Assembly (NCBI GenBank): GCA_902803125.1
Contig: CADCOZ010000244.1
Coordinates: forward strand, 1 to 11,235
Source: an uncultured Ruminococcus sp.
Lineage (GTDB): Bacteria > Bacillota > Clostridia > Oscillospirales > Acutalibacteraceae
DNA: 11,235 nucleotides
Direction: 5' to 3'
Of this stretch, positions 1 to 11,235 are shown in pieces (positions within the stretch are counted from its first letter, which is position 1; the number at the start of each line of letters is the position of its first letter). Position numbers and translations under genes: made by a program. The notes below the pieces were generated by a model. That model was given only the letters and a program-made list of their open reading frames with translations. It searched no databases and had not been told where the DNA came from.

Positions 1-2
1 CG

Positions 3-2246
3 GCGCATATTCCCATCTACGGCAAAACGGAAACCTCTGTCAATCTTCGTGCAGGAGCAGGAACGGAATATGCTTCTCTGCAGGTGATGAAAAAGGATAC
101 CACGGTTACCCTGCTGGACAGATCCAATCCCAGTTGGTATAAGGTGCGTTTGGGTGATGGCACCATTGGCTACTGCTATGCGGCCAGTATGGATATTCTC
201 AACGACTGCAAATCGACTGATTACCTCAATTTCCGCACAGGAGCCGGTACCAATTACAGCATCATTCGTACACTGGCCCCCGGCACCCGTCTGGATATCA
301 TCTGTTTTGCCGGCAAGTCATGGCTCAAAGGCATGACATCAGACGGTGTTATCGGTTATGTCTGCACGGATTATGTGGACTACATTGAAGATGCGTCCAT
401 TAAAGTGACGACTTCAACTTCCCAAGCCGCCCAAAGTAACTTTACGATTTCGGAAACAAAGGCCACGATTGCCAAGGGCAGAAAAGTGGTGCTGACGGCT
501 CAAGGAGCCAAGGGTACAGTAGAATGGAACACCAGCGATGAAAAAGTGGCCAGACTGGTTTCTGACGGTTCGTTTAAGGGCGTGGCCACCGGCACAGCTA
601 CCCTGACAGCAACCGATACCAAAACCAAGCAGACCTTGAAGTGTCAGCTTACCGTTGTACAGACGGATTACCGCTTTATTTATCTTGACAGCAGTGAGAA
701 GAAGCTGGAAGAGGGTACAAGCTGTACGCTCACAGGCCGTACAGAACCGGAAGACGGTAAGTATACCCTGAAATCGTCCAACACGGCTGTGGCTACGGTT
801 TCTTCCACAGGCGTTATCAAGGCCGTCAGTGCCGGTACAGCCACCATCACCGCTTCTGATAAAACCGGTGTGGTAACGGATACCTGCAAAGTTACGGTAA
901 CCTCCAAAGGCAGTATTTCGTTTACCCAGTCATCGTACAGTGTGAATGCGGGTTCTTCTGTTCGCATCGGCATCAATAAAAGCCCGGCCAGCTTAGAGGT
1001 GACTTGGGCCAGCAGCAACAATAATGTGGCTTCTGTCAATAACGGTCTGGTCAGCGGTTTAAGTGCCGGCACAACAGTAATTACCGCATCCGACAGCACC
1101 GGTCAGCTGAGAGCCAGATGTACCGTAACGGTTAACAGTGTCAGCGCCGGTTATGTATCCCTGTCCCGCTATAAGGCCACGACAACCGCCGGCAAGACGA
1201 TTTATATCAAAGGCTATAACGGTTCCAAGTGGGAAACCAGCGACTCTTCGATAGCTACCGTCTGGGACGGTTTCATTGAAACGAAAAATGCCGGCAGAGT
1301 GGCGATTTCCTATACAAACTCTTACGGACAAAAGGCGATCTGTGTGGTAACGGTCACTGACCCTGCTCCTATCAAGTTTGCCTATTCTTCCCCGAACTCG
1401 GCAACCCTTAATTCAAAGGTGACATTGGTAGCCATTACGGATAAAAAGCGTACATCGGTCTATTTCAATGTGTATGACGGCGGTGCCAGTCCGACCATGA
1501 TACAAGCCACCAGCAGAACGGTGGACGGCAATACCCTGATTTGGAAAGGCTCCTATACGCCCAAACAAGCCGGCACCTTTACGGTGAAAGCCTATGCCAA
1601 GTATAACAATGTATGGTCAACCTGTTCAGACGGTTCGAGTGATATCTTTATTGCCAACAAAACCAGCACAAAGGATGTCGGCTTGAAAAAGCTGAGAGCC
1701 AGCGATGCTGTCATCAAGTTTATTGCGGATAATGAAGGCTATGTTCCCGCCATCACTTATGATTATCTGTCGTATAATATCCCGACCCTTGGTCATGGCT
1801 ATGTGGTTTGGGAAGGCGAATGTTTCTATAACAATCTGTCGCTGAATGAAGCCTTTGCCCTGTTGGTGAGATCCATCAATAAGCTGAGCTTCACTTCAGA
1901 TGTTAACAGTATGCTGATTAACAATTATATTTATTTCAATCAGCAGCAGTTTGATGCCTTGGTTTCCTTCTCCTACAATCTGGGTACTGCGTGGACCTAC
2001 TCTTCTGACCTGAAAAACATTCTTTTGAATGCTTATGCTCCTGACGGCTCCCGCAACCTGAACTATGTCAATAAAAACAAACTGATCAACGAAATGCTTT
2101 CTTACCATCATGCCGCCAATGTTTGCTACTACGGCCTGCTCTACCGCCGTGCCGACGAACTCGAAATGTTCCTCTACGGCGACTACGCCCACGACGGCCG
2201 CAGCAACAAATACCACTTCCCCAATCCTTCCTGCATCAGCTTCTAA
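3..2246 (+). CDS. SH3b-Big_2-GH24 lysozyme-like cell-wall hydrolase (5' partial)
   Basis: The frame is open to the left edge, so the true start lies outside; 747 residues are visible and the GTG/ATG at 84-89 is not the start. Numbering from base 3: two bacterial SH3 modules (about 8-66 and 69-130, each with an N[LF]R[AT]GAGT.Y core); about four Big_2-type Ig modules (about 147-217, 218-298, 302-377, 382-453) with the usual W/S-S-N-x-x-V-A and AGTATITA-like strands; a different Ig-like module (about 457-550); and a C-terminal GH24 domain (about 565-725). The GH24 part shows EGYVP (E578), D587 and PTLGHG (T595), matching the Glu-Asp-Thr triad of phage-type lysozymes, then FDALVSFSYNLG and GLLYRRADELEMFL. 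The family cleaves the peptidoglycan glycan strand. SH3b and Big_2 modules suggest a secreted, wall-bound enzyme, but the signal peptide is out of view. No phage genes lie nearby, so a cellular autolysin or secreted lysozyme is more likely than a prophage endolysin. Confidence 0.88.
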   Translation, partial: AHIPIYGKTETSVNLRAGAGTEYASLQVMKKDTTVTLLDRSNPSWYKVRLGDGTIGYCYAASMDILNDCKSTDYLNFRTGAGTNYSIIRTLAPGTRLDIICFAGKSWLKGMTSDGVIGYVCTDYVDYIEDASIKVTTSTSQAAQSNFTISETKATIAKGRKVVLTAQGAKGTVEWNTSDEKVARLVSDGSFKGVATGTATLTATDTKTKQTLKCQLTVVQTDYRFIYLDSSEKKLEEGTSCTLTGRTEPEDGKYTLKSSNTAVATVSSTGVIKAVSAGTATITASDKTGVVTDTCKVTVTSKGSISFTQSSYSVNAGSSVRIGINKSPASLEVTWASSNNNVASVNNGLVSGLSAGTTVITASDSTGQLRARCTVTVNSVSAGYVSLSRYKATTTAGKTIYIKGYNGSKWETSDSSIATVWDGFIETKNAGRVAISYTNSYGQKAICVVTVTDPAPIKFAYSSPNSATLNSKVTLVAITDKKRTSVYFNVYDGGASPTMIQATSRTVDGNTLIWKGSYTPKQAGTFTVKAYAKYNNVWSTCSDGSSDIFIANKTSTKDVGLKKLRASDAVIKFIADNEGYVPAITYDYLSYNIPTLGHGYVVWEGECFYNNLSLNEAFALLVRSINKLSFTSDVNSMLINNYIYFNQQQFDALVSFSYNLGTAWTYSSDLKNILLNAYAPDGSRNLNYVNKNKLINEMLSYHHAANVCYYGLLYRRADELEMFLYGDYAHDGRSNKYHFPNPSCISF

Positions 2247-2299
2247 GAGAAGGACTGTAGTCGGTTAGATTGGTGCTTTTTCTCAAGAATTATCCATCA

Positions 2300-2340
2300 A
2301 AAACAGGTATTCTGTCATGACGGCAGAATACCTGTTTTTT
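2300..2340. terminator. bidirectional rho-independent terminator
   Basis: An 11-bp perfect stem, CAGGTATTCTG (2304-2314) with CAGAATACCTG (2324-2334), has a 9-nt loop. It is followed by a run of T on the + strand and preceded by AAAA, which gives TTTTT on the - strand. It sits between the convergent lysozyme gene and lipoprotein gene and can serve both. Confidence 0.88.
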
Positions 2341-2385
2341 TACGGCGTATCTATTTACGGTGTATCTATTTACGGTGTATCTATA
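2341..2385. repeat. 15-bp tandem repeat, three copies
   Basis: The unit is TACGGYGTATCTATT at 2341-2355, 2356-2370 and 2371-2385. The second and third copies differ only at the last base; the first has C instead of T at position 6. It lies between the terminator and the stop codon of the lipoprotein gene. The period is a multiple of three, but read on the - strand every unit contains TAA, so it is non-coding in that frame. Confidence 0.85.
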
Positions 2386-2390
2386 TTTTC

Positions 2391-3929
2391 TTAGTTCATC
2401 ATCGGGTCAAAGTCTTTCAGCATGACGGAGCCGTAAACACCGTCTTCGTGGCAGTTATAGATAAACGAAATGGAATCTTGGTTATCGGTAATACTGCCCT
2501 CCTTGATGAGGTCTTTCTCCTCTAATTCCTTCAGCAGCTGCATTATGATACTGCGTCTGGTTTCCATGTCGGCTTTCTGATAGTCGATACCGGTGGTTAT
2601 CTCCTTCAGTCGGTTATCTGCCTCGCTCATTCGGTGAATCCATGTGTCATATTTCTGTTGCCATGTCGGAAAACGTTCCTCGATTTCGTCCAGAACCGCT
2701 TGAACGGCTTCATACCCTTCAATATCAAATAACCTGCCGTTATATTCTATGCCGGCCTTCAGCTGACCACGGTCAAACTCGATGCGGCCGCTTTTGTTTT
2801 CGGCGGTATACAGAATCACAATGTGATCGTCAGTAACGCTTTCGTTGTTGTCCCAAGTAACTGTAACACCCTTCAGGGCATTGATCAGCTTGGTCAGCAT
2901 TTCCGGATCATCGGTGCGGTAAAATGCGGAGGAAGTACCTTCTCCGACACGCCGGAAGGAAACCTCCAGCAAGTCGCCATTGCTGTCGTTCCAACAGGCA
3001 TCGTTCAATAGATTCTTTTTGAAGTTATCATCTAATACCTTCTCTACCTTATCGTAGCCTTTCAGCTTATAATATTGGCCGTCTATTCCATATCCGTGTT
3101 CCCCGACTTCCATACAGACGGTTTTCTTTGTGCCTTTCAGGATAATAGTTGTGTTGTCGTCACATATATATTCGGTTGCTGTCGTTCCTATGATGCGGAC
3201 ATCTCTCAGGGCTTCCTCCAGCTTGGTCATCAGTTCTTTATCGGTTGTACTGTCCGATTCTGTGCGGTCTAAGCCGCTCCACGATGAACCATAGGATAAC
3301 AATTCGCCGCAGCTGTCGTTCCAGGTAGTGTATTCGCCTGATGTCAGTGACTCTTCTATTTCGTTCAGTACGGCCATGATGGCCTCGTAGCCCTCCATGT
3401 CATACCGTTTGCCGTTTTCGAAATAGCCGCCGCCCCACAGTTCAAATTTTGTGGTGCCGGCACTTGTTTGATAAGTGACGGTTACGTTATCGGCGTTGGC
3501 TGTCTTTTTACTGTTAGGATCTTTAATCACGGCACTGTTGTAAGCAGCGGTGAATTTTTCGATTAAGTCAGGGTCGTCTGTCGTGAAGGGAATGGGGTCA
3601 TAGGAAGTAGAACTTTTTGTATAATCCGGTTCCCACTGAAAAGACACCGATAGGATGGGTTCGCTTTCATGCCATTTCGTCATGTATACGGATTCCTGCT
3701 GATCCGTTTCTGAACTGGTAACAGATTCCTGCTGATCCGTTTCCGAACCGGTGACAGATGCCGCTGTATCATGGGGTGTGCTTGAGGAACGGCTGTCCGC
3801 AGAAACGGTGCCGGCGACAGAGCTGTCAGGCAACAGCGGTTTCAGCGGCGGGGATTCCGGTGTGCAGGCCGCTGTGATAAAAAGCCCTTCCATAAGCAAC
3901 AAACAGCCAAATGTAACAATCTTTTTCAT
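2391..3929 (-). CDS. Putative surface lipoprotein with three tandem repeats of an unrecognised domain
   Basis: 512 residues. The N-terminus is a short KK-positive region, a hydrophobic stretch and a possible lipidation cysteine (ITAAC, Cys22). The lipobox is imperfect, with Thr at -3, and a Glu (E14) interrupts the hydrophobic core. A Ser/Thr/Pro-rich linker (23-83) contains two copies of SETDQQESV. Three degenerate repeats follow, starting near W86 (WHESEPILSVSF), W203 (WNDSCGELL) and W313 (WNDSNGDLLEVSF). Each has a TTD[DK]P..[LM].[TE]K segment and ends in a GYEA(I/V)..VL[ND]EIEE-like helix. The last 90 residues (about 423-512) are a different, charged segment. I do not recognise the repeat as a named family. 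The start is fixed by AAAGGAGGA 7 nt before ATG. A role outside the membrane, such as ligand binding, is inference only. Confidence 0.8.
   Translation of the reverse strand: MKKIVTFGCLLLMEGLFITAACTPESPPLKPLLPDSSVAGTVSADSRSSSTPHDTAASVTGSETDQQESVTSSETDQQESVYMTKWHESEPILSVSFQWEPDYTKSSTSYDPIPFTTDDPDLIEKFTAAYNSAVIKDPNSKKTANADNVTVTYQTSAGTTKFELWGGGYFENGKRYDMEGYEAIMAVLNEIEESLTSGEYTTWNDSCGELLSYGSSWSGLDRTESDSTTDKELMTKLEEALRDVRIIGTTATEYICDDNTTIILKGTKKTVCMEVGEHGYGIDGQYYKLKGYDKVEKVLDDNFKKNLLNDACWNDSNGDLLEVSFRRVGEGTSSAFYRTDDPEMLTKLINALKGVTVTWDNNESVTDDHIVILYTAENKSGRIEFDRGQLKAGIEYNGRLFDIEGYEAVQAVLDEIEERFPTWQQKYDTWIHRMSEADNRLKEITTGIDYQKADMETRRSIIMQLLKELEEKDLIKEGSITDNQDSISFIYNCHEDGVYGSVMLKDFDPMMN
3688..3753 (-). 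repeat. 33-bp direct duplication in the lipoprotein linker
   Basis: Bases 3688-3720 and 3721-3753 are two copies of a 33-bp unit with four differences. They encode the two SETDQQESV copies of the linker. The period is 11 codons, so the reading frame is kept. The repeat probably arose by replication slippage and changes only the length of the spacer between the lipid anchor and the folded repeats. Confidence 0.85.
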
Positions 3930-3962
3930 AAAATATCCTCCTTTTGATTGGATTCCGAAACC

Positions 3963-3971
3963 TTTATATCA
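3963..3971 (-). promoter_or_regulatory. Possible extended -10 promoter of the lipoprotein gene
   Basis: On the - strand, TGATATAAA is an extended -10 (TGn plus TATAAA) about 34 nt before the start codon. No good -35 hexamer is seen at 17 bp. A promoter is expected here because a terminator separates this gene from the upstream radC-like gene. Confidence 0.4.
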
Positions 3972-4039
3972 ATAATCCGCCACAGCGATAGAAGGTTACA
4001 AAATATTGACTGATCGGATAATTTTTATTCGGAAAAGTG

Positions 4040-4068
4040 AAAAAGCCGACGTATCACGCCGGCTTTTG
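4040..4068 (-). terminator. Rho-independent terminator of the radC-like gene
   Basis: On the - strand AAAAGCCG pairs with CGGCTTTT (4041-4048 with 4060-4067). A further CGT/ACG inner pairing sits past one A-C mismatch, and the stem is followed by TTTTT. It begins 9 bases after the stop codon of the gene ending at 4077. Confidence 0.82.
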
Positions 4069-4076
4069 ATAAAACG

Positions 4077-4793
4077 TCATGAGGAGGTATCGTGAAAAAT
4101 GTCTTTAAGGGTTTCCATAGAAGACATGGCACAGAAATTATTTTCGCCAAAAATATAATGATCCATCAGTTTAACGCCGATGGTGCCGAGAATATTATTC
4201 AATCGTACGGTAGTATTGATATCATTTTGAGAAGGCAGAGCCACGCCGCTGGGATGGTTATGCGCTAAAATGAGATAGGAGGCTTGATAGAAAGAGGCCA
4301 TCTGTAAAATGGTGTTAAAATTGATACTGGCACTCATAGACGTTCCCTTGCTGATATAATCGCAATACAGATATTGATGTTTATCATTAAGAAGCAGCAT
4401 GAGGAGCCGCTCTTGTTTCTGACCGATGAAATAGGGGAAAAGAAACTGGCTGATGCTCTCTTGGTCAGCCAACGGCTTGTCTTTGTATTTGATTTGATTA
4501 TCGTCGATAGCTTTTTTGGCACAAAGAGCCGGAATAAGTCTGAACAAAGTAATGATGGACAAGTTACAGCCGCAGTCCTCCAAACTGTTGGTGGAAAGCT
4601 CCAATAGTCCGGAAAGATTATCGCTCAATAAGAAAAGACGATCGGTTAACTCTTGGCTTTTCTCCTTGGGAGCGCAATAATAAAGCAGTAATTCCAGCAG
4701 TTCTCGGTTGCTGAAAGACTGTTCGCCCTCCTGCAAAAAGCGGTTTGTCAATTGACTGCGGTGATCTTTTTGTTGGGGCGATTCTTTTCTCAT
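4077..4793 (-). CDS. radC: RadC family protein (JAMM/MPN+ domain)
   Basis: 238 residues, close to the usual size of the family (about 220-230). The N-terminal part (about 15-95) matches the RadC helical region (SNRELLELLLYY, GLLELSTNSLEDCG), but the helix-hairpin-helix GxG turn is degenerate. The C-terminal JAMM domain (about 105-230) has the full zinc motif: a candidate Glu at E128, then H178-N-H180-PSG, S188 and D191, which fits H-x-H-x7-S-x2-D, followed by a LMDHYIF strand. The family was named for a proposed DNA-repair role that was later doubted; the actual substrate is not established. The start is fixed by GGAAAGGAG upstream of ATG. A palindrome, TTTCCGGAAA (4805-4814), overlaps the ribosome binding site. 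The gene is monocistronic, with its own terminator and a strong distal promoter. Confidence 0.88.
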   Translation of the reverse strand: MRKESPQQKDHRSQLTNRFLQEGEQSFSNRELLELLLYYCAPKEKSQELTDRLFLLSDNLSGLLELSTNSLEDCGCNLSIITLFRLIPALCAKKAIDDNQIKYKDKPLADQESISQFLFPYFIGQKQERLLMLLLNDKHQYLYCDYISKGTSMSASINFNTILQMASFYQASYLILAHNHPSGVALPSQNDINTTVRLNNILGTIGVKLMDHYIFGENNFCAMSSMETLKDIFHDTSS

Positions 4794-5010
4794 AAAATGC
4801 TCCTTTCCGGAAACAGCATTTGTATTTTCATAAGAAAACGCTGTATCAAGTGAAGTAGGTCATGCGGGCTGTTGCCACACGTTCAGTCTGTGCAGGTAAA
4901 TGAGCGGTTCCATTGTAAAAGACGAAAAGTGCTGTTGGATATCACGGCTTTAAGGACAGAACGCATTCCGCTTTGGGCTTTGGACTGACTTTCTTCCGCT
5001 GTCCGCATTC
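4794..5010 (-). other. Long 5' leader of the radC-like gene
   Basis: About 215 nt lie between the predicted transcription start and the start codon, with no convincing gene. On the - strand it holds a short hairpin (about 4861-4881, 7 bp with G-U pairs), a hairpin-like CAGC...GCTG segment (4813-4842) with an inner TTTTC/GAAAA pairing, and GGACAG...CTGTCC arms near its 5' end. A weak second promoter (TTGATA at 4844-4849, AATACA at 4821-4826, 17-bp spacer) could lie inside it. I do not recognise a known riboswitch. Confidence 0.4.
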
Positions 5011-5016
5011 TACCAT

Positions 5017-5045
5017 ATTATACCTGTTTTTGGAAGTTTTTTCAA
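5017..5045 (-). promoter_or_regulatory. Strong sigma-A-type promoter toward the radC-like gene
   Basis: On the - strand TTGAAA (5045-5040), a 17-bp spacer and a perfect TATAAT (5022-5017). Predicted transcription start near 5010. It is the best promoter upstream of the radC-like gene and gives a leader of about 215 nt. Confidence 0.75.
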
Positions 5046-5124
5046 CTGCTAATGAATGATTTTTCATTGTCGGCCGCTTCAGGTTATTTTATAGCTGATT
5101 TCCGTGATAAAAAAGTAATTAACA

Positions 5125-5154
5125 GTGGCTTTCATCCGAAAGGTGTGTTATAAT
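5125..5154 (+). promoter_or_regulatory. Extended -10 promoter of the metallophosphatase gene
   Basis: TGTTATAAT (5146-5154) is a perfect -10 with the TGn extension. The -35 at 18 bp (GTGGCT) is weak, as often seen with extended -10 sites. Predicted start near 5161, giving a leader of about 85 nt. Confidence 0.65.
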
Positions 5155-5246
5155 AAAAGAGGGGCATTCATAAAAGTGTATCAGTCAGAAAGTGCCGTCC
5201 GTTGTGAAGATGAAGCAGAACCGCTACGAACGAAAGGAGAAAGTGT

Positions 5247-5954
5247 ATGATTTATTGTATGGGAGATATTCACGGAAATTATAAAGGATATAAAAGTCTT
5301 TTGCAGCAAATTTGTTTTTCGGATAAAGATATTCTGTATACCATTGGTGATGTGGTGGACAGAGGGGAAGAAAGCATGAAGGTACTGTTGGATATGATGA
5401 TGCGGCCGAATGTCTATCCGATCATGGGCAATCATGACTGGATGGCTTTTCAGTGCCTGAAATGGTTCTCGCAGGATATTACAGAGGAAAGTATTGCACA
5501 GTTAAGTGAGGAAAAAATGGATGCCGTTAAGGAATGGTTCGTCAACGGCGGAGAAAGTACCCTTCGGGAGTTCAGAGGCTTGAGTGCGGAACAGCGGGAG
5601 TTGGTGATGGAGTATTTGGGAGAGTTTTCGCTGTATGAAGAAGCCGAAACGGAAAGCGGCTCGTTTTTAATGCTGCACGGCGGCTTGGATAACTTTTCGC
5701 CGGAACGTCCTTTGGAGGACTATACGGCCGGTGAAATCATCTGGGCAAGATGTGACTATGAAAAAACATATTTTCCCGATAAGTTTCTGGTAACGGGTCA
5801 CACGCCGACACGCAATATCAGAAGTCATTTGCATTTGCCGATGAATGACAGGATTTTTTCCCGCAATAATCATATCGCCATTGACTGCGGGTCGGGTATG
5901 GGCGGTTTGCTGGGTGTTATCTGCTTGGATACTTTTGAGGAATACTATGCATAA
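5247..5954 (+). CDS. Metallophosphoesterase, PPP serine/threonine phosphatase-like
   Basis: 235 residues with all the metal and phosphate signatures of the PPP/ApaH-like calcineurin fold: GDIHG (6-10), GDVVDRG (34-40), GNHD (61-64), MLHGG (142-146) and VTGHT (182-186), then IDCGSGMGG near the C-terminus. Length is typical of small bacterial protein phosphatases such as the PrpA/PrpE type. The likely reaction is two-metal hydrolysis of phosphoesters, either protein Ser/Thr/Tyr phosphate or dinucleoside polyphosphate; the sequence does not decide. No signal peptide, so cytosolic. The start is fixed by AAAGGAG 8 nt before ATG. It appears to be transcribed alone from its own promoter; no clear terminator follows. 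The next rightward gene has a separate promoter. Confidence 0.88.
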   Translation: MIYCMGDIHGNYKGYKSLLQQICFSDKDILYTIGDVVDRGEESMKVLLDMMMRPNVYPIMGNHDWMAFQCLKWFSQDITEESIAQLSEEKMDAVKEWFVNGGESTLREFRGLSAEQRELVMEYLGEFSLYEEAETESGSFLMLHGGLDNFSPERPLEDYTAGEIIWARCDYEKTYFPDKFLVTGHTPTRNIRSHLHLPMNDRIFSRNNHIAIDCGSGMGGLLGVICLDTFEEYYA

Positions 5955-6042
5955 TGCTTTTTCGATGAGATTAACGACGTTGTTGAGGGGGTATCACAGC
6001 AGAGTGTACAAAAGTTGAACCTAATTTTCTATGTGTTATTTT

Positions 6043-6071
6043 TTGACATTTTCTTTTCTGCCATGTATAAT
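6043..6071 (+). promoter_or_regulatory. Perfect consensus sigma-A-type promoter
   Basis: TTGACA (6043-6048), a 17-bp spacer and TATAAT (6066-6071) match the consensus at all twelve positions. Predicted start near 6078, leaving a leader of about 120 nt before the gene at 6200. The leader has complementary short arms (CCGAA near 6133 and TTCGG near 6165) but no recognised riboswitch. Confidence 0.88.
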
Positions 6072-6199
6072 AGAAATGTACTCTTTTTTTGTGGGTGAAA
6101 AAATTCTGTATAGAACGAGAATGTGTTGTTGGCCGAACCGTATAGGGAGGCTGAAAGCGGCATTTTCGGTTGTATACAAGGTGGAAAGGGAGATGTTAG

Positions 6200-6658
6200 A
6201 TGGACAGTTTGACAATAGAAATGGATCGGAAAATCGAGAATGTACGGAATCAGCATAAAGACCTTAATAAGGCTTTCCACCATCATTTTTATATTGAAGC
6301 ACTTTATATGGAGTATATGCTCATGGAAGAGTATACCGAGATGTTTTTGCAGTATGCTGATTTGTGGCCGGCCTATTTGAAGAAACGGCGGGGACATGAA
6401 ACGGTGCTGGCTTCTAAAATCAGATATATACAAGCGGCCGCATTAGACGGCAATAAGGTGCTGAATAAATATTTCAGTGATGATTTGCTGGATAAAGTAT
6501 CGGCATGGACAGCCAAGAGGTACAAGCTGATTCAATCCTCTTTGAAATCTCCTGTGGCCGCAGAGTATCTGGAGCAGGTGGCCGCAGAAGGGCGGGAACT
6601 GTCCCTGCAAATGCGGACACGCTTTACGGTGGTGAAAAAGTGCTTGACAGTGGGATAA
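6200..6658 (+). CDS. Hypothetical helical protein
   Basis: 152 residues, not recognised. The sequence is rich in Lys, Glu, Leu, Met and Tyr, has no signal peptide or membrane segment, and is predicted by eye to be nearly all helical. An early part (about 22-60) is aromatic- and Met-rich (HHHFYIEALYMEYMLMEEYTE), and the C-terminal half (about 95-145) is amphipathic. The start is chosen at ATG 6200 with GGGAG 7 nt upstream; an overlapping frame from 6031 has no such site. It is the only gene behind the perfect promoter at 6043, so it is likely highly expressed unless repressed. It ends about 100 bases before a strong terminator. No function is proposed. Confidence 0.72.
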   Translation: MDSLTIEMDRKIENVRNQHKDLNKAFHHHFYIEALYMEYMLMEEYTEMFLQYADLWPAYLKKRRGHETVLASKIRYIQAAALDGNKVLNKYFSDDLLDKVSAWTAKRYKLIQSSLKSPVAAEYLEQVAAEGRELSLQMRTRFTVVKKCLTVG

Positions 6659-6660
6659 AA

Positions 6661-6746
6661 GTTAGCGAATTTCGAGAGGAGTCCCCCCCCAACGAGTTCC
6701 AAGGGCAGAATCCTTGATGGGGGGTTGGAGGGTCATGCCCTCCAAC
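6661..6746. repeat. Hairpin-rich intergenic repeat-like element
   Basis: Starting just after the stop codon at 6658, this holds three stacked inverted repeats: a C8 run (6683-6690) able to pair with G6 (6719-6724); inside it CAAGG (6700-6704) with CCTTG (6712-6716); and after it a perfect 9-bp hairpin GTTGGAGGG (6724-6732) / CCCTCCAAC (6738-6746) with loop TCATG. No T run follows, so it is not a terminator by itself. Its left end (GTTAGCGAATTTCGAGAGG) resembles the sequence at 11177 near the right edge, which suggests a dispersed element. Confidence 0.55.
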
Positions 6747-6761
6747 GGGACACAATAAAAT

Positions 6762-6803
6762 AACCGCCGGTTGGTTCCTTTGTGAGCCAGCCGGCGGTTT
6801 TTT
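6762..6803. terminator. Bidirectional terminator between convergent genes
   Basis: AACCGCCGG (6762-6770) pairs with CCGGCGGTT (6791-6799). The pairing continues inward with G-T wobbles (TGG/CCA, TC/GA) to a 6-nt loop. Six T follow on the + strand. On the - strand the downstream tract is T-rich but broken (TTATTTTATT), so it is a weaker stop for the acyltransferase/GT8 operon ending at 6813. Confidence 0.85.
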
Positions 6804-6812
6804 ACAGTTTTA

Positions 6813-8660
6813 TCATTCTGTGGGGACAGTGTCGCTGTCCGTGGGAGCGGCGTTGTTGTCGGTGGTGACAGAACTGCTGCCGTCCATCAGGGTGATGGGG
6901 TCAAATTCGGTGGTATAGGTCAGGGTGATATGGTATTCGGATTCGTAGATTTCTTTCCAGACCGCATAGTTTTTCAGCATCATGTCGGTGATTTGCTTGC
7001 GGTAGGGCAGGTTCGGATCCGGATAAATCGGCGGTGCTACATGAATCGTATATTCCTGCACATAGAAGCCGTCCTCACCCATAATATCGGAATCTTTCAT
7101 GGTGATGAAGCAGGGAAGCACGGGGGCATGATTCTTGGCGGCAAACATGAAGGCACCGTTTTTCAGCGGTTTCGGTTTGCGGTAGTTCCACCACATACTT
7201 TGTTCGGGATAGAACAGTACAAAGTTGCCGTCCTGAATCAGCTGGTTGGTGGCACTGATGAATTTCTTCATGGTTTTGCGGTTGGAGGACAGCGGCAGGG
7301 TGTTGCAGTGACGCATCAAGAAGCCGTAGAAGCCGGGGAAAGAGGTATAGTTGCCTTCACGGATAACCCGCCAGAAGGTGCGTTCTTTATGGCCGGAGGC
7401 TTCATAGGCCAACTGAATGGCAAAGCTGTCGAAGGCGTTGAAGTGGTTGCAGGTGATGACAGCACCGGAATCGAGGGCGGTGAAGTATTCCAGACCACGC
7501 ATTTCCTTGATGATCAGCTTTTTGTCCTTAATCAGGTTATTGACGAATTTATGGGCGATGATAAAGGCAATCTTGGTTTTCAGTTTGTCGGTAATGCTCT
7601 TCTGCACATACTCAATCTCATCGGGCAGCAGCACACGGCCCGGCGGGTCGTTTTCGACATCCTCGTCAAAGCGGCCTTCCCGTTCAAATTGTTCAATCTT
7701 ATGCAGAATTTCCACACGATCCTTGGAGCGTTTATCACGGTTAACACGATTCATAAAATTATCCTCACGTTCGGTTTCGGCCACCGCCAATTGCACCAGA
7801 TTATCCTGCGAATGGCGATCCCGTTCTTTTTCTTCCTCTGTATAGGCGGTTTGTACCGCTAAAATATCCTCATAGACAGAGGTCTCTTTGGCGTATTTCC
7901 AGAAGATGTCACCGTGGCGGCAGTCGGCATAGTGCCACGGCTTACTGGTCATGATATAGTGCAGGATATTGGCTTGTGCAATCGGATAGCTGATTTCTCC
8001 GAAAATTTCGGTGTTCCACCGCTGGTCAATCCAATAGACATGATCCTTGCAGATGACGTTCAGATAGTCCTCGTCCTGTGTGACCACAAAGTTATAGAAA
8101 TGCAGGTAGTCAATGAATTTATCCAGCACAAACCGCAAACGGAACTGTTCGCAGTTAATCAGCAGAACACCGGCATTGAAGAAGTTATAGCGGGACACGC
8201 CTACCACTTTTTCTACATAAACGCCGAATTCATCGACTTGTATCATGACTTGTTCATGGCTGGCACCAACATAAGCATCTTTGATATCGGTATTGAAATA
8301 TTCGCTGATATCTCCCTGCACAATGGTGTCGCTGTCGATATAGATCGCCTTGGTGTATTCGGGGAACATCTCGGCAATAAACAGGCGGTAGTAGGTGGTT
8401 TTGGAATAATAGTCCCGCAGGGGCAGCTTGTCCGAAATCGACTTCAGATAGTCTGTCACGTCGATAAAGCGAATCTCAAAGCATTCGTTTTCCATTTCCT
8501 TCACAAGCTGCTGTGTGGCTTCGGAAATATCGGTATAGAGAATGTAGACAATGTATTGTTTATCCGGAGCGGCATTGACCATCATGGAATGCAGTGAAAC
8601 GATGGTGTACTTAACAAAGTTTTCGTCACAAGCGTAAAAAATAGGAATAATTTGTTTCAT
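6813..8660 (-). CDS. GT8 glycosyltransferase-PlsC acyltransferase fusion protein
   Basis: 615 residues with two enzymatic domains in one frame. Residues about 1-265 are a family 8 retaining glycosyltransferase: an N-terminal IPIFYACDENF strand, the metal/nucleotide-sugar DxD motif YIDSDT (D109, D111), FFNAGVLLIN, TQDEDYLNV and HYIMTSKPW (H234). A charged linker (about 270-345, many Glu/Arg) joins a PlsC-like lysophosphatidate acyltransferase domain (about 355-575) with NHFNAFD (H406-x4-D411), a FWRVIREGN...FPGFYGFLM block, FYPEQSMWW in place of FPEGTRS, and PVLPCFIT. The last 20 or so residues are Ser/Thr/Asp-rich. The family reactions are sugar transfer from a nucleotide sugar and acyl transfer to a hydroxyl. 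The ATG at 8660 is preferred over the TTG at 8669; the ribosome binding site (AAGGA) is rather far, 10 nt, and lies in the duplicated segment. It is the last gene of the operon. Confidence 0.88.
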   Translation of the reverse strand: MKQIIPIFYACDENFVKYTIVSLHSMMVNAAPDKQYIVYILYTDISEATQQLVKEMENECFEIRFIDVTDYLKSISDKLPLRDYYSKTTYYRLFIAEMFPEYTKAIYIDSDTIVQGDISEYFNTDIKDAYVGASHEQVMIQVDEFGVYVEKVVGVSRYNFFNAGVLLINCEQFRLRFVLDKFIDYLHFYNFVVTQDEDYLNVICKDHVYWIDQRWNTEIFGEISYPIAQANILHYIMTSKPWHYADCRHGDIFWKYAKETSVYEDILAVQTAYTEEEKERDRHSQDNLVQLAVAETEREDNFMNRVNRDKRSKDRVEILHKIEQFEREGRFDEDVENDPPGRVLLPDEIEYVQKSITDKLKTKIAFIIAHKFVNNLIKDKKLIIKEMRGLEYFTALDSGAVITCNHFNAFDSFAIQLAYEASGHKERTFWRVIREGNYTSFPGFYGFLMRHCNTLPLSSNRKTMKKFISATNQLIQDGNFVLFYPEQSMWWNYRKPKPLKNGAFMFAAKNHAPVLPCFITMKDSDIMGEDGFYVQEYTIHVAPPIYPDPNLPYRKQITDMMLKNYAVWKEIYESEYHITLTYTTEFDPITLMDGSSSVTTDNNAAPTDSDTVPTE

Positions 8661-8665
8661 ACTCT

Positions 8666-8755
8666 TCAAATCCTTGCCTCATAAATTTCTTTCAAGGTCA
8701 GATATTCCTTTCAAATCCTTGCCTCATAGTTTTCCTTCAAAGTCAGGTATTCCGC
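8666..8755 (-). repeat. 45-bp tandem duplication of the GT8 3' coding end
   Basis: Bases 8666-8710 and 8711-8755 are two adjacent 45-bp copies, 38 of 45 identical. The second encodes the real C-terminus of the GT8 protein, AEYLTLKENYEARI and stop. The first, lying after that stop and in the same frame, would encode KEYLTLKEIYEARI and stop. Three of the seven differences are synonymous third-base changes. The extra copy ends 5 bases before the ATG of the fusion gene and supplies its ribosome binding site region. Confidence 0.9.
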
Positions 8756-9541
8756 TAAGATATCGTCAAACTGATGATATTGAAAGACAGAATGCACCTT
8801 GTCGATGTGCCATTGTTTAATGTTGTCGGTGTGGGGATAGGGGAGCCAGAACAGCCGTTTGGAAAAGTGCCGGATAATGGTGTGGTCATGCAGGAATTTC
8901 TGGTCATTGTACCGCTGGGGCAGTACTTTGCGTTTGGTGGTGGAGCGAATCAAGGCACTTTGGTCGGCAAAGACCAGCTTTTTATAGCGAATCCAAGCTC
9001 TTGCTTTGGCAAACAGACGGGTTTCACGGCATTTTTTCATGTTGAACAGCAGCACGCCGGCATTGATATAGTGCGGGTGAATCAGGTATTTGCCGTAATG
9101 GTCGGGAGCGGCGGCATATTCATAATCGGTGATGTCTGTACTCCACAGCAGAAGGATATCCCGATTGAACATAATGTCAATATCCAGATACAGCAGTTTA
9201 TCCGGAATGGTGTCGAATTGGTCGGCAAAGAGCCGAATCAGTGTATAGGGGGAGCAGTACGCCCCTTCGTTGGGACAGCCGGAAAAGTACCGCATATAAT
9301 AATCGGTCACGTCATAGAGAAGAGCACGGCTGTCGGGGTGATATTTCTGTATAACCTCGTTGAGAAAATCAACTTGTTTTTGGGGAATCGGGGTGTAGTT
9401 GGGGTCAAGATGCGACACATCCATCGTAAAGAGATGAAAGGTAAAGGGCTGTCGGCTTTTGGTGCGTTTCAGAATGGAGAGGATACAGGTCAATGCACCG
9501 TCAAAAACGCCGCTGTTGCCGCAAAAAAGGATATCAATCAT
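8711..9541 (-). CDS. GT8 family glycosyltransferase
   Basis: 276 residues from ATG 9541. The chain begins directly with the first strand of the family (MIDILFCGNSGVFDGALTCI). It carries the metal-binding DxD motif LYLDIDIMF (D120, D122), then YINAGVLLFNM (158-168) and ADQSALI (192-198), as in LgtC-like retaining galactosyl- or glucosyltransferases. No membrane segment or signal peptide, so it acts on the cytosolic side. A longer reading from 9613 adds 24 unlikely residues inside the upstream gene; the internal ATG has GGGAG 7 nt before it and overlaps the acyltransferase stop by 8 bases (ATGATTGA), which points to translational coupling. Donor sugar and acceptor are unknown. It is only distantly similar to the GT8 half of the fusion downstream. 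Confidence 0.87.
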   Translation of the reverse strand: MIDILFCGNSGVFDGALTCILSILKRTKSRQPFTFHLFTMDVSHLDPNYTPIPQKQVDFLNEVIQKYHPDSRALLYDVTDYYMRYFSGCPNEGAYCSPYTLIRLFADQFDTIPDKLLYLDIDIMFNRDILLLWSTDITDYEYAAAPDHYGKYLIHPHYINAGVLLFNMKKCRETRLFAKARAWIRYKKLVFADQSALIRSTTKRKVLPQRYNDQKFLHDHTIIRHFSKRLFWLPYPHTDNIKQWHIDKVHSVFQYHQFDDILAEYLTLKENYEARI

Positions 9542-10319
9542 GTTCGCACTCCCTTTTGATATAGCGGATCGTTTCGTAATCAGAGCCTTTGGCACGTTCG
9601 CACATGGCTTCATATACTCTGTTGCGTAAATCCCTGCGTCTTTCTTTCAGGGGCAGACTTTCATCGGGATAGAACGGTCCGTCAATGTAGGTAATAATTT
9701 TCGGTTCCTTGCCGGGCTTCCGCAGGTGATAGGTGTTGGTGAAGCAGTAGACAGGAGCCATCAGCTTGGCGGGATAGGTGAAGGAAGTATCCACAAACGG
9801 GCGGATTTTGGTGTAGTACGGCCAGATGTGGGCTTCGGGATAGATGACAACGCCGTGTTTCCGCTTGATGTGCGTTTCAATGGCGGCGTTGAAGTTCCGA
9901 TAAGCGGCTTTCTCATCGGGCAGCGGCAAGGCACCCAGTGAAGGAGTAATACGACCCAGCCACGGCATGGAAACATTATTGGGATGCACCACAACATAGT
10001 CATGCTTGGGAAAGTTCAGCAGGCTGGGAATGAAGGCATCGCCAATGATTTGTGTGTGGTTGCCGTACATAAAATACCCCTGCTTTTTACATTCACGAAA
10101 CAACTTTTTGCCGACAATTTTCTGATGAAACGTGAATTTTACATAGCAAAAAGCAATCGGAGTGGCCACGATACGGTACCAAAAGAAATGGGTGAACTTC
10201 TTAAAGAGAGAATCGTGGATATACACATAATTTTCATCAATTCGTTTGGGAGTGATTTGAGCCACGGAGAACTCATCTTTCAATTCATCTGTATAATAAA
10301 TCACCTTACGCTTATCCAT
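9534..10319 (-). CDS. PlsC-like 1-acylglycerol-3-phosphate-type acyltransferase
   Basis: 261 residues. Landmarks of the family: YGNHTQIIGD (86-94) as motif I, MPWLGRITPSLGALPLPDE (118-136) as the motif II region, VVIYPEAHIWPYYTKIRPF (157-175) as motif III in place of FPEGTR, and LMAPVYCFT (186-194). Motif I is unusual: His88 and Asp94 are five residues apart instead of the usual four. The weakly hydrophobic stretch at about 43-66 may sit on the membrane. The family transfers acyl groups to a lysophospholipid or similar hydroxyl acceptor. The start is fixed by GAGGAGGAAAC before ATG. First gene of the operon, about 130 nt after the predicted transcription start. Confidence 0.86.
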   Translation of the reverse strand: MDKRKVIYYTDELKDEFSVAQITPKRIDENYVYIHDSLFKKFTHFFWYRIVATPIAFCYVKFTFHQKIVGKKLFRECKKQGYFMYGNHTQIIGDAFIPSLLNFPKHDYVVVHPNNVSMPWLGRITPSLGALPLPDEKAAYRNFNAAIETHIKRKHGVVIYPEAHIWPYYTKIRPFVDTSFTYPAKLMAPVYCFTNTYHLRKPGKEPKIITYIDGPFYPDESLPLKERRRDLRNRVYEAMCERAKGSDYETIRYIKRECEHD

Positions 10320-10355
10320 GTTTCCTCCTCAATAGGCTGTGTTCCGGTTGGAAAC

Positions 10356-10374
10356 GTCAGGCGTATCTGCTGAC
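10356..10374 (-). promoter_or_regulatory. Small hairpin in the operon leader
   Basis: GTCAG (10356-10360) and CTGAC (10370-10374) form a 5-bp inverted repeat with a 9-nt spacer, about 35 nt upstream of the ribosome binding site of the first operon gene. It could be a second operator half-site pair or an RNA hairpin, or chance. Confidence 0.25.
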
Positions 10375-10385
10375 AAACGGAACCC

Positions 10386-10414
10386 TTGACAGAACGCTTT
10401 GATCCTTCTATAAT
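10386..10414 (+). promoter_or_regulatory. Perfect consensus promoter of the TetR regulator
   Basis: TTGACA (10386-10391), a 17-bp spacer and TATAAT (10409-10414). Predicted start near 10421 and a leader of about 128 nt to the GTG at 10549. It faces the operon promoter. Confidence 0.87.
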
Positions 10415-10420
10415 CTAAAG

Positions 10421-10438
10421 TGTAATGGTTTCTTTACA
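10421..10438. promoter_or_regulatory. Candidate operator palindrome
   Basis: TGTAA (10421-10425) and TTACA (10434-10438) flank an 8-bp centre; six of nine symmetric pairs match in 18 bp. It lies between the two -10 boxes and over the predicted starts, where a TetR dimer would block both promoters. No binding data; position and symmetry are the only support. Confidence 0.5.
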
Positions 10439-10456
10439 TACTTATCCTATCATAAA

Positions 10457-10485
10457 ATTATACCGATTTAGCGATTATCTGTCAA
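10457..10485 (-). promoter_or_regulatory. Perfect consensus promoter of the acyltransferase/GT8 operon
   Basis: On the - strand TTGACA (10485-10480), a 17-bp spacer and TATAAT (10462-10457). Predicted start near 10450. The leader of about 130 nt runs through the whole TetR promoter. Confidence 0.87.
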
Positions 10486-10548
10486 TAACTTCGCTTTATT
10501 GCGATACATTTTTATCAATTTGTTTCTTTCTTGGGGAGGGAAAAGGCC

Positions 10549-11118
10549 GTGCGGAAAAAAGACCAGTCAACAGACTTCCTGAAAGGCTGTTTATCGGATG
10601 CCTTGTTTAAACTGCTGAAGGAAAAAGAGTATGACAAAATAACCGTTGGCGAAATCACCGCCTTGGCGAATGTGTCACGGGCTACCTATTATCGGCACTT
10701 TCAGTCGAAAGATGAACTGCTGCTGTATAAAATTGACCACTTCACGGACGAATGGCTGGCCTCGGTGTTCGGCGGCGGCGGACTGTCGCTGAAAGAATTC
10801 CTTACCTTATATTTGCGTTTGATTTATGATAACCGCTCCTGTCTGCGGCTGTTATATCAGGCAGGAAAAAAGGGCATATTAGAAGAGTACCTGCTGCGGC
10901 GGATTGTGTCCGGCCGTGTGCCGGCTGAATTTCAGTATCGGCAGATTGGCCGAGCCTTTTATTTGCTGGGAATGTTTAGCTTATGGATTCAGCGGGATTT
11001 TCAGGAAACGCCGGAGGAACTGATGGGCATTATTCTTCGGCCTTATGAAGATTTCGGTTCATTGGCGGCCGATGCCGAAAAAATCCTGAAAGGCGTGGAT
11101 CCTTCGGCTGACTTCTGA
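10549..11118 (+). CDS. TetR/AcrR family transcriptional regulator
   Basis: 189 residues from GTG 10549, a typical TetR length. The N-terminal DNA-binding helix-turn-helix is at about 30-51 (KITVGEITALANVSRATYYRHF), followed by QSKDELLLYKIDHF, the usual link to the ligand-binding helices. The C-terminal domain (about 65-185) is helical and not recognisable to a named ligand class. GTG is preferred because GGGGAGGG lies 8-9 nt upstream; the in-frame TTG at 10531 overlaps that site. The gene faces the acyltransferase/GT8 operon, so it most likely represses the operon, itself, or both, and is released by a small ligand. The effector is unknown. No terminator is seen after the stop. Confidence 0.9.
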   Translation: MRKKDQSTDFLKGCLSDALFKLLKEKEYDKITVGEITALANVSRATYYRHFQSKDELLLYKIDHFTDEWLASVFGGGGLSLKEFLTLYLRLIYDNRSCLRLLYQAGKKGILEEYLLRRIVSGRVPAEFQYRQIGRAFYLLGMFSLWIQRDFQETPEELMGIILRPYEDFGSLAADAEKILKGVDPSADF

Positions 11119-11129
11119 GGAGAAATAAA

Positions 11130-11164
11130 GAATAATGAATAATGAATAGTGAATAATGAATAAT
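11130..11164. repeat. 7-bp tandem repeat, five copies
   Basis: The unit is GAATAAT, repeated five times with one substitution (third copy GAATAGT). It begins 11 bases after the TetR stop codon. AT-rich simple repeats of this kind are prone to slippage. No coding meaning is seen. Confidence 0.88.
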
Positions 11165-11176
11165 GTTGATTTAGGT

Positions 11177-11235
11177 CAAGTCAGCAAATTTTGGAAGGGG
11201 GTTTGGGGGGTCTCGCCTGTCGGCTCGGTCCGGTC
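11177..11235. other. G-rich segment, possible cut copy of an intergenic repeat
   Basis: GTCAGCAAATTTTGGAAGGG (from 11177) aligns with GTTAGCGAATTTCGAGAGG (from 6661) at about 16 of 23 positions. It continues into two long G runs and then GC-rich sequence cut by the window edge. In the 6661 copy the same position leads into the C8/G6 stem. The match is suggestive, not proof, because only the left end is visible. Confidence 0.35.

Follow-up and report, generated by a model that had tools for sequence, protein, structure and literature searches.

A conserved clostridial operon joins GT8 glycosyltransferase and PlsC-type acyltransferase domains and may build an acylated membrane glycolipid

What is made by an operon that encodes two sugar-transferring and two acyl-transferring units, one of each being fused in a single protein? 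The question is raised by a DNA stretch of 11,235 nucleotides from an uncultured Ruminococcus sp. (assembly GCA_902803125.1, contig CADCOZ010000244.1, positions 1 to 11,235 of the forward strand; hereafter the window), the right-hand half of which contains three leftward genes (A, B and C). We consider it probable (at roughly 60%) that they form a pathway, cytoplasmic and peripheral to the membrane, by which an acylated di-hexosyl membrane glycolipid is made. An initial annotation had described them as encoding a PlsC-like acyltransferase, a glycosyltransferase of family 8 (GT8) and a GT8-PlsC fusion, a description that was borne out, since the open reading frames are in place and keep their active-site motifs:

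9534..10319, minus strand: gene A, predicted stand-alone PlsC-superfamily (LPLAT fold) acyltransferase, 261 amino acids; motif I NHTQIIGD (HX5D), motif III YPEAHIWPYYT
8711..9541, minus strand: gene B, GT8 glycosyltransferase, 276 amino acids; DXD motif in YLDID
6813..8660, minus strand: gene C, GT8-PlsC fusion, 615 amino acids
7929..8645, minus strand: GT8 domain of C; DXD at D109/D111, H234...KPW
7104..7502, minus strand: PlsC (PF01553) domain of C; NHFNAFD, i.e. HX4D at H406/D411, and YPEQSMWW
7731..7763, minus strand: approximate fusion joint of C (around residues 300-310), where the split-form GT8 ends and the split-form acyltransferase begins

On the evidence of homologues and gene overlap, the start of B was set at ATG 9541 rather than at 9613 (as listed for the open reading frame), and that of C at ATG 8660 rather than at the listed TTG 8669. 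Genes A and B overlap by 8 bases, and C starts 50 nucleotides downstream of the B stop; in relatives there is next to no space between B and C (median gap -4).

The survey of the GT8-PlsC pair and its neighbours that the initial annotation had proposed was carried out by scanning genome contigs, in which 485 loci were found to encode a relative and 80 were kept. The full fusion was present in 80/80 kept loci and 75 of them had A-B-C in order on one strand, the remaining five being L043 (at a contig edge) and L058, L065, L072 and L075 (C without A and B). The fear that the fusion was a rare annotation or assembly artefact, or a chimera, is thereby dispelled. A protein search, from which 3972 matches were scored, showed both Pfam domains on all 120 matches listed. 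In genome samples drawn evenly by taxonomic rank (each count including the window's own genome), the fusion profile (fused or as one half, E 1e-60) was recovered from 15/147 genomes of the order, 17/391 of the class and 1/398 of the phylum. The operon is a patchy trait of Clostridia, and its named carriers are rumen and gut Clostridia, Ruminococcus, Oscillospiraceae, Lachnospiraceae and Eubacterium, mostly known from metagenome assemblies. Just as the initial annotation knew of no described pathway with this gene set, we found no published description of the fusion or the operon in the open-licence literature (subscription journals were mostly outside the scope of the search).

The N-terminal half of C belongs to GT8 (Glyco_transf_8, PF01501: E 8.3e-41, 140.7 bits against a cut-off of 24.3) and its C-terminal half to the PlsC/AGPAT superfamily (Acyltransferase, PF01553: E 4.8e-13, 49.5 bits against 23), and B is likewise a GT8 member (Glyco_transf_8: E 1.2e-16, 61.5 bits against 24.3). 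We stress that C stays below the cut-off of NCBIfam TIGR00530 (34.6 vs 102.95 bits) and thus outside the 1-acyl-sn-glycerol-3-phosphate acyltransferases, the name under which some of these proteins are found in databases. Pattern counts across the kept fusion loci highlighted the conservation of the active sites, both in C (DXD in 78/80, H..KPW in 80/80, HX4D in 79/80 and YPEQSMWW in 80/80) and in B (DXD in 75/75). A transmembrane-like stretch was found in none of the three proteins (maximum Kyte-Doolittle values of 1.1-1.4). Judging by their sequences, all four units look catalytic.

The structure of the fusion, whose prediction had also been proposed in the initial annotation, was modelled with a predicted local distance difference test score (pLDDT) of 81.5 and a predicted template modelling score (pTM) of 0.72. 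The best fold match of C was LgtC (26% identity and a TM-score of 0.77 to the target for the GT8 half), and WbbM, GlyE and other glycosyltransferases were also recovered; LgtC, WbbM and GlyE are thus among the structural neighbours of the GT8 domain, whose GT-A fold is supported by these matches. As the fold matches listed for C were glycosyltransferases only, its PlsC half is assigned from the sequence; the model is poor in the YPEQSMWW loop (low-confidence stretch 486-498).

Gene A required a more indirect approach, as the window copy gave no Pfam or NCBIfam match at E 0.01 and the copy of L001 (20.8 bits) stayed below the PF01553 cut-off of 23. Three lines of evidence point to the same superfamily: homologues of A in the split operons described below exceed this cut-off (L088, 31.3 bits; L089, 24.6; L091, 32.4), the A profile aligns with the PlsC half of C in a profile-profile comparison (201 columns, E 2e-10), and the predicted model of A (pLDDT 87, pTM 0.86) matched LpxM, PlsC, PatA and GPAT1 in a fold search of the PDB, in which PilT-type and other ATPases also appeared at lower TM-scores. 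Solved-structure searches with the sequence and the profile of A returned nothing usable, and matches came from the fold search alone. Hence, by sequence comparison and model, A is predicted to be a PlsC-superfamily protein despite the lack of a family match for the window copy. Its motif I departs from the strict PlsC/AGPAT form, with HX5D in 73/75 and HX4D in 0/75 copies, and YPEAHIWP is kept in 74/75. The HX5D variant has been reported for SalA of roseobacters (PMC8319176) and for fungal glycerol-3-phosphate acyltransferases (GPATs; PMC4207751).

The coupling of the four units has been rearranged more than once. More diverged Clostridia were found to carry them as adjacent separate genes, in which the two halves of C (here CG for the GT8 and CP for the acyltransferase half) align to C residues ~4-304 and ~310-590. 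The joint near residue 305 implies that the stretch 250-390 of C, far from being a linker, comprises the closing part of one enzyme and the opening part of the other. The gene order is B-CG-CP-A in L088, L089, L091, L107 and L113, and A-B-CG-CP in L087, L105, L106 and L112; CG-CP stands without A and B nearby in L086, L090, L092, L093, L104 and L110, has A ~9 kb away in L094 and lies at a contig end in L111. Fused operons may also be reordered (B-C-A in L100-L102, which share a genus code with the split L113) or reduced to C (L103, without A or B within the fetched 15 kb), and in G015, G103, G681 and G696 both halves lie in a single frame broken by one stop. Judged by their length, the contigs of L095, L096 and L097 are identical with those of L019, L014 and L059. 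A tree was built from the acyltransferase half with 58 rows, of which 42 are fused (41 fetched loci and the window) and 16 split (L092 omitted for its poor frame). It requires a minimum of 4 changes of the fused/split state, 2 of these forced by well-supported branches, a count that does not distinguish fusion from fission; 4 of the split rows have long branches. The placement of all fused rows in a single clade was rejected by the approximately unbiased test (p-AU 4.6e-5), and the fused state has thus changed more than once.

Genomes G103 (C2:73981-74664) and G143 (C10:173823-174506) have an additional, remoter match to the A profile away from the GT8-PlsC pair, and both are without a B match.

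Neighbouring genes point to lipid work. A 680-amino-acid gene of the LtaS/MdoB type (PF00884) was found within 400 base pairs of the operon in 19/80 loci, in four arrangements (11 downstream on the same strand, 6 downstream convergent, 1 upstream on the same strand and 1 upstream divergent); all 19 PF00884 genes detected in the fetched flanks were adjacent to the operon, an adjacency that needs 3 changes on a 54-row tree. These proteins score closest to MdoB-type phosphoglycerol transferases, with LtaS next. A single query for DegV/FakB-like genes recovered 9 in the flanks, 8 of them within 400 base pairs, all 8 on the same strand, in 6/80 loci; such genes also adjoin the split operons L091 and L107 (overlapping A in the latter). 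Fatty acids destined for lipid synthesis are bound by FakB proteins (PMC12288450).

A further line of evidence comes from the genome-level occurrence of the UgtP/monogalactosyldiacylglycerol (MGDG) synthase family (PF06925), which, together with PF00884, was assessed in the genomes of 50 of the 80 loci (of L001-L011, L003, L007 and L009 fell outside this sample). PF06925 was found in 80/147 genomes of the order and in 15/50 fusion genomes, the latter being all 8 of the window's nearest relatives tested (L001, L002, L004, L005, L006, L008, L010 and L011), 3 of the 38 other A-B-C carriers and 4/4 genomes with C and neither A nor B; the window's own draft had no match. The other A-B-C carriers differ both from the non-carriers of the order (3/38 vs 75/132, Fisher p 2e-8) and from the C-only genomes (3/38 vs 4/4, p 3e-4), figures that carry no kinship correction and are suggestive only, as the counts were already known when the three groups were drawn up. 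None of the four C-only genomes gave a B match at E 1e-10, and C's own half was their sole match to the A profile; in two of them (L058 and L072) a UgtP-like gene lies ~1.2 kb from C.

We reason that the conserved motifs, the repeated physical coupling, the neighbours of the fatty-acid-binding and of the phosphoglycerol-transferase type, and a distribution partly complementary to that of UgtP together favour a membrane glycolipid. Our inferred scheme, from the sugar donors and the acceptor to the sites of acylation and the sequence of steps, would be as follows. The two GT8 units (the N-terminal half of C and B), presumably retaining transferases of uridine diphosphate (UDP)-hexoses like other members of the family, would attach two hexoses in alpha linkage to a lipid acceptor, which is most likely diacylglycerol. 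Protein A and the C-terminal half of C would each esterify one hydroxyl (of sugar or glycerol) of the growing glycolipid with a fatty acyl chain, and the fusion would couple one glycosylation and one acylation on the same intermediate. In many lineages, the operon may be the source of the glycolipid that is elsewhere made by UgtP; in some, the adjacent LtaS/MdoB-type phosphoglycerol transferase might use this product, and in the nearest relatives of the window it is probably a free membrane glycolipid. The part of the initial annotation that read the operon as building an acylated glycan, with a glycolipid as one example and with coupled sugar addition and acylation, agrees with the motifs, with the occurrence of the four units as split genes and with the neighbours of LtaS, DegV/FakB and UgtP type; its other example, a lipid anchor of a surface polymer, does not hold as a general role (see below).

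Several observations weigh against this glycolipid pathway. The DegV- and LtaS-type neighbours are present in a minority of loci only, many of the genomes examined are drafts, and no acyltransferase appears among the 50 fold matches listed for C. The contrast in UgtP weakens once the 8 nearest relatives are included (11/46 A-B-C carriers vs 75/132, p 1e-4) and is not significant in the order-wide sample (5/15 carriers vs 75/132, p 0.10). Moreover, the absence of A and B amounts to 2 events on the tree, both with UgtP, a number that cannot reach significance; the fused C-only L103 lies outside the UgtP count, and the split forms without A and B are mixed (G093 with UgtP, G015 weakly so, L111 with the gene nearby; G103, G143 and G038 without). 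In the 8 nearest relatives the full operon and a UgtP-family gene occur together, and the operon is therefore not a simple replacement of UgtP; the idea of a plain substitute is weakened both by these genomes and by the non-significant order-wide count.

Could the product instead be dedicated to lipoteichoic acid (or a related glycerophosphate polymer), with an LtaS-type enzyme extending the operon's glycolipid? The adjacency of LtaS/MdoB-type genes in four arrangements, with every detected copy beside the operon, speaks for such an anchor pathway, which we nevertheless regard as unlikely, since these neighbours are nearer to MdoB-type transferases than to LtaS and PF00884 was found in only 31/50 carrier genomes (30 of them above the curated cut-off), the other 19 being without a match. 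Among the nearest relatives tested, 7/8 are without it (L011 being the exception), and the 74%-complete draft of the window's own genome gave 0 matches to PF00884, the family of the polymerase that an anchor would presuppose. The anchor is therefore not an obligatory product and is rejected as a general role for the nearest relatives of the window; it would be, at most, a lineage-specific use. We also find it rather unlikely that a glycerolipid is assembled sugar-first, GT8 first putting a sugar on glycerol or glycerol phosphate before two chains are added by the acyltransferases, a scheme for which we know of no precedent. In its detailed (and just as doubtful) form, A would be GPAT-like and act at sn-1, and the C half PlsC-like at sn-2, and dihexosyl-diacylglycerol would arise by a route that bypasses both phosphatidic acid and diacylglycerol. 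Two sugars and two acyl chains would match this lipid exactly, GPAT1 is among the fold matches of A, and two other PF01553 proteins of the genome (C137) are likely ordinary PlsC; the HX5D of A, in keeping with what is reported for fungal GPATs, is however also reported for SalA, which is not a GPAT, and the presence of UgtP in C-alone genomes suggests that C can act downstream of a ready-made glycosyl-diacylglycerol.

Two other explanations lead away from a membrane glycolipid. That the operon houses two unrelated functions, the acyltransferases remodelling phospholipids (as PlsC homologues do) and the GT8s glycosylating surface proteins or glycans, could draw on the structural match to GlyE, a bacterial GT8 protein glycosyltransferase, yet it seems improbable given the repeated fused/split change and the recurrent company of all four units; furthermore, no adhesin was recognised in the neighbour clusters of at least 4 loci (first residues only, several of them unannotated). 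Improbable as well, in our estimate, is a pathway in which the repeat unit of a capsular or cell-wall polysaccharide, and not a membrane glycolipid, would be acylated while on a polyprenyl carrier, which WbbM-type GT8s (active in polysaccharide synthesis, with WbbM among the fold matches) would suit: no flippase, polymerase or polyprenyl-phosphate transferase was recognised in those same clusters, again from first residues only.

The proposed glycolipid pathway can be set against known systems. The UgtP/YpfP and MGDG-synthase family (GT28), sparse among the A-B-C carriers beyond the window's nearest relatives, also makes dihexosyl membrane glycolipids in Firmicutes, but its enzymes are of an unrelated GT-B family, transfer sugars only, and are inverting, with beta linkages; to our knowledge they have no acyltransferase partner. 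PatA (phosphatidylinositol mannoside acyltransferase) and LpxM (lipid A acyltransferase) share the fold class of A and acylate glycolipids at the cytoplasmic membrane periphery, yet they use HX4E (as opposed to the HX5D/HX4D of the operon), have no glycosyltransferase fusion and act on other lipids in other phyla. OlsF (bifunctional ornithine-lipid synthase) and SalA exemplify PlsC-superfamily enzymes recruited to a non-phospholipid membrane lipid, SalA with the HX5D of A and OlsF with two steps joined in one protein; their products are aminolipids, and the partner domain of OlsF is an N-acyltransferase, that of the operon a glycosyltransferase. The GT8 galactosyl- and glucosyltransferases LgtC and WaaI-WaaJ have the same fold and DXD, but they act on Gram-negative lipooligosaccharide cores and have no acyltransferase domain.

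Two stand-alone C-type acyltransferases (L088:5175-6041 and L089:5344-6207) have HX4E, the variant of lipid A acyltransferases and PatA, in place of HX4D, which indicates that motif I is variable within the group.

In gut and rumen bacteria, membranes are shaped by glycolipids, which the host immune system is able to recognise, and we know of no identified glycolipid-making enzymes for many Clostridia. The conserved operon names four candidates at once, its fusion makes it possible to ask whether sugar transfer and acylation are coupled through their substrates, and the operon is a possible reason why many of these genomes are without UgtP-type synthases.

The surroundings of the operon in the window comprise the following features:

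10457..10485, minus strand: sigma-70 promoter-like site ahead of A (TTGACA-17-TATAAT, 12/12 consensus positions)
8665..8753, minus strand: tandem duplication of 44 nucleotides (the two copies 89% alike) that covers the end of B and the gap between B and C
6752..6808, minus strand: intrinsic-terminator-like hairpin with T-rich tail after C (-26.8 kcal/mol, z -5.8)
10531..11118, plus strand: divergent TetR-family regulator, a possible local regulator (relative in 0/80 loci)

With a promoter-like site ahead of A (one of 16 sites found by the scan, against 6.7 in shuffles) and a terminator-like hairpin after C, A-B-C looks like a bounded operon. Through the 44-nucleotide duplication, the final codons of B also appear within the B-C gap, which is unexpected given the tight B-C junctions of relatives. 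A second 12/12 promoter-like site (10386-10414, plus strand) faces the one at 10485-10457 (minus strand) between A and the divergent TetR gene, and the two transcripts would thus overlap. A search of 10300-10560 for a TetR operator palindrome gave no inverted repeat of at least 10 bases.

Conservation of the window's other genes was assessed with tblastn (E 1e-5) across the 80 loci, and the TetR, RadC, metallophosphatase, 152-amino-acid and 512-amino-acid neighbours, found in 0, 1, 2, 2 and 1 of them, were rejected as conserved parts. The RadC-like JAB-domain protein (4077-4793, minus strand) had as its sole match the UPF0758 N-terminal family, below cut-off, and the 512-amino-acid protein (2391-3929, minus strand; relative in L010 only of the 80) has a lipoprotein-like N-terminus and no Pfam match. 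At the left end of the window, which cuts it, a gene on the plus strand (3-2246) encodes SH3_3, Big_2 repeats and a phage-lysozyme domain, and its product is perhaps a secreted or surface-binding lysozyme-like enzyme.

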